Source: Balneolia bacterium (lineage in GTDB: Bacteria > Bacteroidota > Rhodothermia > Balneolales > Cyclonatronaceae). Taken from it: 64,000 bases of DNA. The stretch's first letter is position 1. Each line of letters opens with the position of its first letter. Under the pieces are notes generated by a model. It made no database searches, was not told the origin of the DNA, and saw only the letters and a list, made by a program, of their open reading frames with translations. The DNA is taken from NCBI GenBank assembly GCA_022565795.1, contig JAIUMA010000011.1, positions 1 to 64,000 on the forward strand. Direction: 5' to 3'. Of this stretch, positions 43,741 to 44,435 are shown one piece after another. The position numbers and the translations under genes were made by a program.

Positions 43741-43824
43741 GCCCTGGTGGTGAAATTGGTAGACACGCCATCTTGAGGGGGTGGTGCTGGCAACGGCGTG
43801 CTGGTTCGAGTCCAGTCCAGGGCA
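43741..43824 (+). tRNA. tRNA-Leu (anticodon GAG)
   Basis: An 84-base class II tRNA. Acceptor stem GCCCTGG with CCAGGGC, discriminator A at 43824, a D-loop with AATTGGTAGACAC, anticodon stem CCATC/GGTGG around loop TTGAGGG (anticodon GAG), a variable arm typical of leucine and a T-loop TTCGAGT. No CCA is encoded. It is followed by a hairpin terminator, and its last 34 bases recur at 44143-44229. Confidence 0.95.
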
Positions 43825-43838
43825 CAACGATTAAATTT

Positions 43839-43878
43839 AAAGGCTTCTTAGACATTTTGTTTATGAAGCCTTTTTTTT
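43839..43878 (+). terminator. Terminator of tRNA-Leu(GAG)
   Basis: AAAGGCTTC (43839-43847) pairs with GAAGCCTTT (43865-43873), followed by eight T in all. A related hairpin with the same AAGGCTTC start lies behind the duplicated tRNA tail at 44247. Confidence 0.85.
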
Positions 43879-43898
43879 GAATGCAATCCCCGTGAGCT

Positions 43899-44144
43899 AT
43901 GTATTTCGTTTACGCAATAAAAAGTACTCACAAAAATTATATCTACGTAGGGATAACCTCAGATTTACAGCGGCGGATAGACCAGCACAACAAGGGCTAT
44001 GAAAAATCAACAAAACCATATGCCCCGTTCGAGTTGATCTATAAAGAAGAGCAGCCAGACAGAAAGCAGGCGCGAATCAGGGAGAAATACCTTAAATCTG
44101 CCGCCGGAAAAAGGTTCCTTCGATCTCTTATTCAAAGCCCTTAA
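43899..44144 (+). CDS. Small GIY-YIG nuclease (UPF0213/YhbQ-like)
   Basis: An 81-residue single-domain protein. It carries the GIY motif (YFVYAIKS), the YIG motif (YIYVGIT), the active-site arginine in LQRRIDQHN and the catalytic glutamate in RIREKYLKS, so the nuclease site is complete. Such proteins are multicopy in Bacteroidota; the biological role is unclear. It begins 74 bp behind a tRNA-Leu, and its TAA stop is formed at the junction with a second copy of that tRNA's 3' end: bases 44143-44144 belong to the repeat. A decayed second copy lies at 44306. Confidence 0.9.
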   Translation: MYFVYAIKSTHKNYIYVGITSDLQRRIDQHNKGYEKSTKPYAPFELIYKEEQPDRKQARIREKYLKSAAGKRFLRSLIQSP

Positions 44145-44229
44145 CGGCGTGCTGGTTCGAGCCTGCCTGACTGCCCTCAAGACTTCTTTTCTACATCGAT
44201 ACACGGCAGGCAGGTCCAGTCCAGGGCAC
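44143..44229 (+). repeat. Duplicate of the tRNA-Leu(GAG) 3' end, split by an insert
   Basis: Bases 44143-44161 are identical to 43792-43810 (19 of 19) and bases 44215-44229 to 43811-43825 (15 of 15). Together they are the last 33 tRNA bases plus one base behind it. The 5' part of the tRNA is missing, so this copy cannot make a tRNA. A 53-bp insert (44162-44214) separates the two pieces inside the T-loop sequence. Confidence 0.92.
44162..44214. mobile_element. 53-bp palindrome-ended insert in the tRNA-tail copy
   Basis: The insert begins CCTGCCTG and ends CAGGCAGG, an 8-bp perfect terminal inverted repeat, around 37 bases with no coding capacity. It resembles a REP- or MITE-like miniature repeat. 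No target-site duplication is evident. A CCTGCCTGCCCGTG run near 59312 is partly similar to its reversed end. Confidence 0.6.
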
Positions 44230-44246
44230 TCCAAGAAAAAATATTT

Positions 44247-44282
44247 AAGGCTTCACAAACTTCGGTTTGTGGAGCCTTTTTT
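44247..44282 (+). terminator. UUCG-capped terminator behind the tRNA-tail copy
   Basis: A 14-bp stem with one wobble, 44247-44260 with 44265-44278, closed by a C(TTCG)G tetraloop and followed by six T. It occupies the same relative place as the terminator of the intact tRNA, so it belongs to the duplicated unit. Confidence 0.9.
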
Positions 44283-44305
44283 GATGGTTGAAACAGTTAT
44301 CAGCC

Positions 44306-44435
44306 ATGTATTTCCTCAAAAGCAAGAATCGAAACTACATCTATGTTGGAATTACCTCTGATCTTAACAGGCGGATTTAAGAACCTAATAAAGGCTTTGA
44401 GAAAACGACAAAGCCATATGCACCTTTAAGTTCGA
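44306..44435 (+). pseudogene. Decayed second GIY-YIG gene
   Basis: Translation from ATG 44306 gives MYFLKSKNRNYIYVGITSD then LNRRI, closely matching the intact neighbour with a 9-base deletion near the start. An in-frame TAA (44378-44380) follows, and beyond it the same frame reads EPNKGFEKTTKPYAP, again matching. Similarity ends near 44435, so the last third, including the catalytic glutamate, is lost. Distance from the tRNA-tail copy to ATG (76 bp) matches that of the first unit (74 bp). Confidence 0.85.

Follow-up and report, generated by a model that had tools for sequence, protein, structure and literature searches.

The window analysed here is a stretch of 64,000 nucleotides from the genome of a Balneolia bacterium (contig JAIUMA010000011.1, positions 1 to 64,000 of the forward strand), in which a functional tRNA-Leu(GAG) gene, identified by ARAGORN at 43741..43825 (+), anchors the arrangement described below. 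The counterpart of this gene is 95-100% identical in most of the nearest genomes. Its last 34 nt (43792..43825, +), referred to here as the restored tail, consist of the same bases as a displaced copy detected downstream by repeat comparison. Behind the tRNA gene come, as the original prediction had stated, a terminator-like hairpin recognised as an inverted repeat (AAGGCTTC...GAAGCCTT with a T-run, 43838..43878, +) and a complete small GIY-YIG nuclease gene (GIY1, 43899..44144, +; Pfam PF01541, E=2.7e-19), which encodes 81 aa comprising the catalytic domain only. The GIY1 stop codon TAA occupies 44142-44144 and the second tail begins at 44143, so that the stop codon does use the first two bases of the tail. 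All 34 bases expected of this second tail are present, two of them shared with the TAA, but they do not form the single run that had been proposed, as a 52-bp insert had been overlooked. The displaced copy is made up of a 5' arm (AACGGCGTGCTGGTTCGAG, 44143..44161, +), corresponding to tRNA positions 52-70, and a 3' arm (GTCCAGTCCAGGGCAC, 44214..44229, +), corresponding to positions 70-85 and identical to the functional tail; the arms measure 19 and 16 bases, with one base belonging to both (34 in total). Between them, in the T-loop of the displaced copy, lies the insert with its palindromic ends (CCTGCCTG...CAGGCAGG, 44162..44213, no strand assigned), which is found at the same position in the sister genome G002 and has a related insert in G075. 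DNA folding of the displaced tail of the window is no better than that of shuffles (z -0.25). The palindrome of the window was considered as a high-copy family in its own genome and rejected, as it occurs there at 4 places, with a shorter spacer.

A second terminator hairpin with the same AAGGCTTC stem follows (from 44247 to 44278-44282, +), as had been described, and then a second GIY-YIG gene (GIY2, from 44306 to 44431, +), rightly called decayed: it contains one in-frame TAA, is truncated and has lost the residues around the Tyr of the first motif. Of the two gene spacings originally given, 76 and 74 bp, the 76 bp stands, and the other, in front of GIY1, is 73 bp. The absence of an integrase or recombinase was likewise borne out around the locus, whose neighbours are dnaA, folate genes, tig, clpP and clpX, and no intron was seen in the window. 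The window genome contains two GIY-YIG matches beyond GIY1 and GIY2, neither of them near a tRNA.

Both motifs and the catalytic Arg and Glu of the GIY-YIG superfamily are present in the window protein, and residues Y5, Y16, G18, R26, H30 and E62 are invariant in the GIY-YIG alignment, in accordance with the earlier description of a nuclease of about 81 residues with intact motifs and catalytic Glu. Its AlphaFold model (pLDDT 94) is a bare catalytic domain, from which a DNA-binding domain is absent, and the nearest solved folds found with Foldseek are BH0048, Slx1 (ranks 2-6) and I-TevI (rank 7). Among 16 diverse proteins of the family, no conserved stretch was usable as a scan pattern. The window gene and its G002 counterpart show a dN/dS of 0.04 at a dS of 1.9, and values between genomes range from 0.04 to 0.11 in a set that leaves out Gracilimonas copy1/copy2 (misaligned frame). 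As judged from these ratios, purifying selection acts on the genes of the window and of its sister genome. Where they can be aligned, GIY1 and GIY2 are 67% identical in aa sequence. The alignment score of GIY2 is higher against the G002 gene (169) than against GIY1 (123), which fits an older resident that was pushed downstream.

tRNA-linked units in other genomes

According to the original prediction, the arrangement would be only a local duplication if GIY-YIG homologues were not found next to tRNA tails elsewhere, or if relatives showed the same two copies at an ancestral fixed site. Neither outcome was observed: homologues lie directly 3' of a tRNA gene in many genomes, with a displaced tail behind them, and a comparison of relatives revealed sites with and without the unit. 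The interval from tRNA-Leu(GAG) to tRNA-Leu(TAG) measures 147 bp in G001, which lacks the nuclease there, and 778 bp in the window; G002 carries one unit at tRNA-Leu(GAG), without a second nuclease gene. Occupied and unoccupied alleles of one site are represented both here (G000 and G002 against G001) and at the rnpB pair described below, and the presence of the unit is patchy among close relatives. In G006 and G018 the first nuclease codons lie behind tRNA-Leu(GAG) at a contig end. Short-read contigs break off inside units (L118 of G006, L126 of G018, L055/L011 of G062), so that copy numbers are underestimated. The same unit at two loci of one genome with unlike flanks was not caught. Three loci in Niabella, considered as a case of intragenomic spread, have identical flanks and are uninformative, since duplication or assembly is possible.

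A homologue occurs in 65 of 98 relatives, often several times, and about 60 further stretches were added and examined for tRNAs and nuclease genes. A same-strand tRNA end lies less than 450 bp upstream of 105 GIY-YIG genes, at a median distance of 63 bp, where by our estimate (about 45 tRNAs in 3.6 Mb) such proximity is expected by chance at about 0.3% of random positions. With a tRNA directly 5' in these 105 cases, and no intron seen in the window, the nuclease genes agree in placement with free-standing homing endonucleases of the SegB type. The anchor tRNAs are Leu(GAG, CAA), Met(CAT), Ser(GCT, TGA, GGA), Val(TAC, GAC), Gly(GCC) and Asn(GTT); Leu, Met, Ser, Val, Gly and Asn are used in Balneolia, and mostly tRNA-Met across Bacteroidota. 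A scan of 84,980 named species, which covered the Met-type nuclease only, yielded 80 loci in Bacteroidota, Balneolota and single MAGs of Cloacimonadota, KSB1, Marinimicrobia and a Woesearchaeote, with a tRNA upstream in 58 of the 68 testable loci. No relative was found in viral contigs; phages and plasmids gave distant matches only, and at the one phage locus inspected no tRNA was annotated beside the gene. A tree of 95 tRNA-linked nucleases shows 8 changes in the amino acid of the tRNA, versus 36-40 with shuffled labels, which indicates that the nuclease tracks the tRNA type. Near-identical tandem copies are found in G075 and G040 (dS 0.07 in each), and Gracilimonas has a triple tandem array.

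Of 99 distinct units, 63 have a recognisable displaced 3' part of their own tRNA that starts at the nuclease stop codon or close to it, as in the window, with a restored 3' end before the nuclease and the displaced native end behind it; in several units the stop codon falls inside the tRNA copy itself. Chance is excluded by the comparison with reversed sequence (3/99), and the tail of another amino acid's tRNA gave 12. In 36 of the 99 units (with 0/6 recognised for Val-TAC) the displaced tail is unrecognisable, through decay or another arrangement. The 5' arms start at or near the nuclease stop codon and not at a fixed core. A foreign replacement end was not seen, functional and displaced ends being alike within each genome.

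The palindromic insert in the displaced tail is the most general feature of the unit. In almost every case a palindrome interrupts the displaced copy, at a tRNA position that is fixed for each type, and a hairpin arm of at least 6 bp is present at the break in 53 of the 63 units, compared with 7.7% in shuffles. In Met copies, positions 38-47 are replaced by TCCGCC-n-GGCGGA, with the break at 37/48 in nearly all readable cases; 45 of 60 Met stems read TCCGCC/GGCGGA and 3 read TCCGTC/GACGGA, a compensating change. Leu copies carry an insertion in the T-loop, Ser copies a 22-nt insertion in the T-loop between GGGTTC and GAATCC, and in Gly copies the T-arm is replaced by TCCCGA-n-TCGGGA. The displaced 3' arm is 98.5% identical to the tRNA of its own genome, against 62% to that of other species (p=9e-5). 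This match persists even when the nuclease is saturated at synonymous sites, so that arm and tRNA are kept alike by recombination, recent formation or selection.

Relatives at other targets and dispersed palindromes

A clade of nucleases at targets other than tRNA genes is nested within the tree. In five genomes (G025, G030, G057, G099 and G100, the last four in L295, L296, L312 and L314) the GIY-YIG gene lies in the loop of the P3 hairpin of RNase P RNA, and the rnpB inserts have inverted repeats on their two sides, e.g., CCCAGCACATAACGTTCATTG / CAATGAACGTTATGTGCTGGG. Empty rnpB genes occur in G016, with flanks identical at 97/101 and 245/250 positions, and also in G013. The rnpB of several Balneolaceae has a second insert further 3', roughly 125 nt long, AT-rich and palindromic (L287-L289, L298; G016, G013, G042, G061). 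A tyrosine-recombinase gene is interrupted in G047, G071 and G106 (L017:1470-1770; L019 1467-1766, reverse; L304) by a GIY-YIG insert about 300 bp long and bounded by inverted ends (CCCCGTTA.../...TAACGGGG). The gene of a RAYT-like Y1 transposase is interrupted exactly in G044 (L012, reverse, about 1465-1775) by a comparable insert, whose inverted ends are short. When the flanks were joined, the reading frame was restored exactly in all three cases joined (G047 and G071, that is L017 and L019, and the RAYT-like gene). These non-tRNA insertions, which have clean boundaries in the rnpB, integrase and RAYT genes, support the view that the family moves without a transposase, in a format that differs from that of the tRNA units. 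We also observed, in G055, G064 and G086 (L030, L058, L068), a GIY-YIG gene flanked on one side by a truncated rfbB 5' end and on the other by a whole rfbB-like gene, an arrangement that is a mirror-image target duplication.

The palindrome ATCCGCC-n-GGCGGA is dispersed in these genomes and frequently embedded in further palindromic repeats, with up to 33 hits per genome versus about 0 in the control, a symmetric hit possibly counting on both strands. Such palindromes are commoner in genomes with a Met-type nuclease (median 8 vs 1; p=2e-8, or p=1e-6 without the unit copies), these genomes not being independent, and G073 is an exception, with 33 hits and no Met-type gene found. The association between palindrome and nuclease is a correlation among related genomes and not proof. 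ATCCGCCAGCTGGCGGA palindromes are also nested in other dispersed repeats, e.g., GTCATCCCG...CGGGATGAC (L242, L245-L250; G056, G057, G016).

A homing-type reading and its rivals

Genome comparison demonstrates the anatomy of the unit, its recurrence, its clade specificity, the fixed breaks, the matching tails, selection on the nuclease and presence or absence at a site. The order of parts, as read from the aligned loci, is a restored tRNA 3' end, a terminator, a GIY-YIG gene of about 80 codons, a displaced palindrome-bearing 3' part of the tRNA and a terminator. We regard the arrangement as real and general, and it most likely represents a minimal homing-type unit; judging from sequence, we put at roughly 0.6 the probability that the window holds one member of a family of such minimal, tRNA-anchored units. 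The original prediction had already proposed a minimal unit of about 350 bp anchored at a tRNA, but missed the palindrome, the tRNA-specific clades and the relatives outside tRNA genes.

In the proposed mechanism, each nuclease would cut genes of the tRNA type to which it belongs, at the point that the palindrome marks. This point is predicted to lie in the T-loop for Leu and Ser and, for Met, in the 3' anticodon stem and the variable region. A recombination event with a copy that bears the unit would mend the break: the tRNA head would serve as one arm of homology, and the displaced 3' arm, being a match for the recipient's tail, as the other. Repair would copy in tail, terminator and nuclease, leave the tRNA intact and move the old tail downstream, where the palindrome would destroy the site in the displaced copy. 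Repeated rounds of cutting and repair would explain both tandem arrays and matching tails, and in the window an older unit (GIY2) would have been pushed downstream and then decayed. Several points count against a homing reading: the functional tRNA, being intact, should itself be a target; 36 of the 99 units have no recognisable displaced tail; no unit was caught at two loci of one genome with unlike flanks; and with a nuclease devoid of a DNA-binding domain the choice of one tRNA gene is not evident from its sequence.

A simple tandem duplication was the plain alternative of the original prediction; in such a reading tail, terminator and nuclease were copied locally, one copy decayed and the nuclease is passive cargo. 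It would account for the near-identical tandem arrays of G075 and G040, the triple array of Gracilimonas and the AAGGCTTC stem common to both window terminators, but we consider it improbable, since GIY1 and GIY2 are old relatives that have diverged while their tails are identical, single-copy units (G002 and many others) carry the displaced, palindrome-broken tail too, and unrelated tRNA genes show the same pattern, each with its matching clade of nucleases. Integrases classically leave the 3' end of a tRNA directly repeated at either border of an insert, as seen here, and the locus could be a relic of att-type recombination, in which the displaced tail is attR and the unit a small satellite of an island that bears an integrase. 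The neighbourhood contains no site-specific recombinase of the kind that characterises tRNA-integrating islands, the nuclease is the one constant gene, and a palindrome interrupts the repeat at a constant position, with 5' arms that start near the nuclease stop codon and share no fixed core; such a relic is very improbable.

Strong purifying selection (dN/dS 0.04), hairpins conserved with compensatory change and displaced arms that stay identical to the tRNA would all suit a resident host or regulatory locus, in which a nuclease and a tRNA-like decoy hairpin are kept by selection on the displaced RNA. This is made unlikely by the patchy occurrence of units among close relatives, by the existence of decayed copies and of tandem arrays, and by the insertion of related nucleases into rnpB, integrase and RAYT genes. 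There is also little chance, in our view, that what truly moves is the palindromes, as REP-like elements, with a nuclease that serves their spread and a tRNA unit that is one residence of the pair. Their dispersal against a control of about 0, their position within other palindromic or repeated sequences and their higher number in Met-type genomes point in that direction; the dependence among genomes, the exception of G073 and possible counting on both strands weaken it. Tentatively, stand-alone GIY-YIG genes of about 80-95 codons might be autonomous mobile elements of about 300 bp that enter hairpin-forming or conserved sequences (tRNA genes, the P3 loop of RNase P RNA, integrase and RAYT genes), leave a palindrome where the site was broken and spread palindromes as non-autonomous offspring, a proposal that we hold to be possible and still doubtful. 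On this proposal they would rank with the smallest mobile elements that encode their own mobility, relying on structure-aware cutting and host recombination in place of a transposase or integrase.

If the homing-type reading is true, bacterial chromosomes would harbour homing-type selfish units in their essential tRNA genes, each type of tRNA having its own nuclease clade, and a bare catalytic domain of 80 residues could suffice. Small GIY-YIG genes right behind tRNAs are a common annotation pattern in Bacteroidota and their relatives that has gone unremarked, and the reading would give it a testable explanation; the same account would cover the dispersed palindromes of these genomes and link the bacterial loci to the tRNA amplification driven by SegB in phages.

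Comparison with known systems

The host, the target arrangement and the size of these units are new, and their kind is already known. A published description linking GIY-YIG genes with bacterial tRNAs, palindromes or rnpB was not found in a search that lay mostly outside subscription journals. The window nuclease shares its catalytic fold and residues with I-TevI, which differs in being encoded by a group I intron and in having a separate DNA-binding domain. It shares the GIY-YIG fold with Slx1, which cuts branched DNA, and a choice of targets by structure (tRNA genes, the rnpB hairpin, palindromes) would by analogy fit Slx1-like cutting; Slx1 is, however, a eukaryotic repair nuclease with a partner protein and is not mobile. 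REP/RAYT systems likewise combine dispersed palindromes with a nuclease-type gene, whereas RAYTs are HUH transposases of the Y1 type and the protein described here is a GIY-YIG nuclease without Y1 HUH character.

Two systems come nearer. According to the accessible part of the report on SegB, this free-standing GIY-YIG homing endonuclease of phages T4/T6 cuts inside tRNA genes at the motif RAWTSGAAC and drives tandem amplification of tRNA and nuclease gene through short repeats (PMC13096335). The motif is the complement of the T-loop sequence GTTCSAWTY, and the likeness concerns both a GIY-YIG enzyme beside tRNA genes and the T-loop, where the displaced Leu and Ser copies are broken here. SegB carries more than a catalytic domain. 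It belongs to phages, whereas the units described here are bacterial and chromosomal, and neither a displaced, palindrome-broken tail nor subfamilies for individual tRNAs are described for SegB in that accessible part (PMC13096335).

The mORFs of Glomus mitochondria are, in the accessible part of their description, endonuclease ORFs at the 3' end of a gene, which bring a replacement end and push the native end downstream (PMC3630166). Replacement 3' end and displaced native end are what the units described here have in common with them. ORF360 of Allomyces is a mitochondrial mORF of the same kind. The Glomus mORFs differ in their protein-coding mitochondrial targets and in being mostly LAGLIDADG enzymes, and the accessible part of that source does not mention a palindrome in the displaced end (PMC3630166). 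By analogy, SegB would be the closest known experimental parallel to the tRNA-anchored units, and the Glomus mORFs the closest architectural one.
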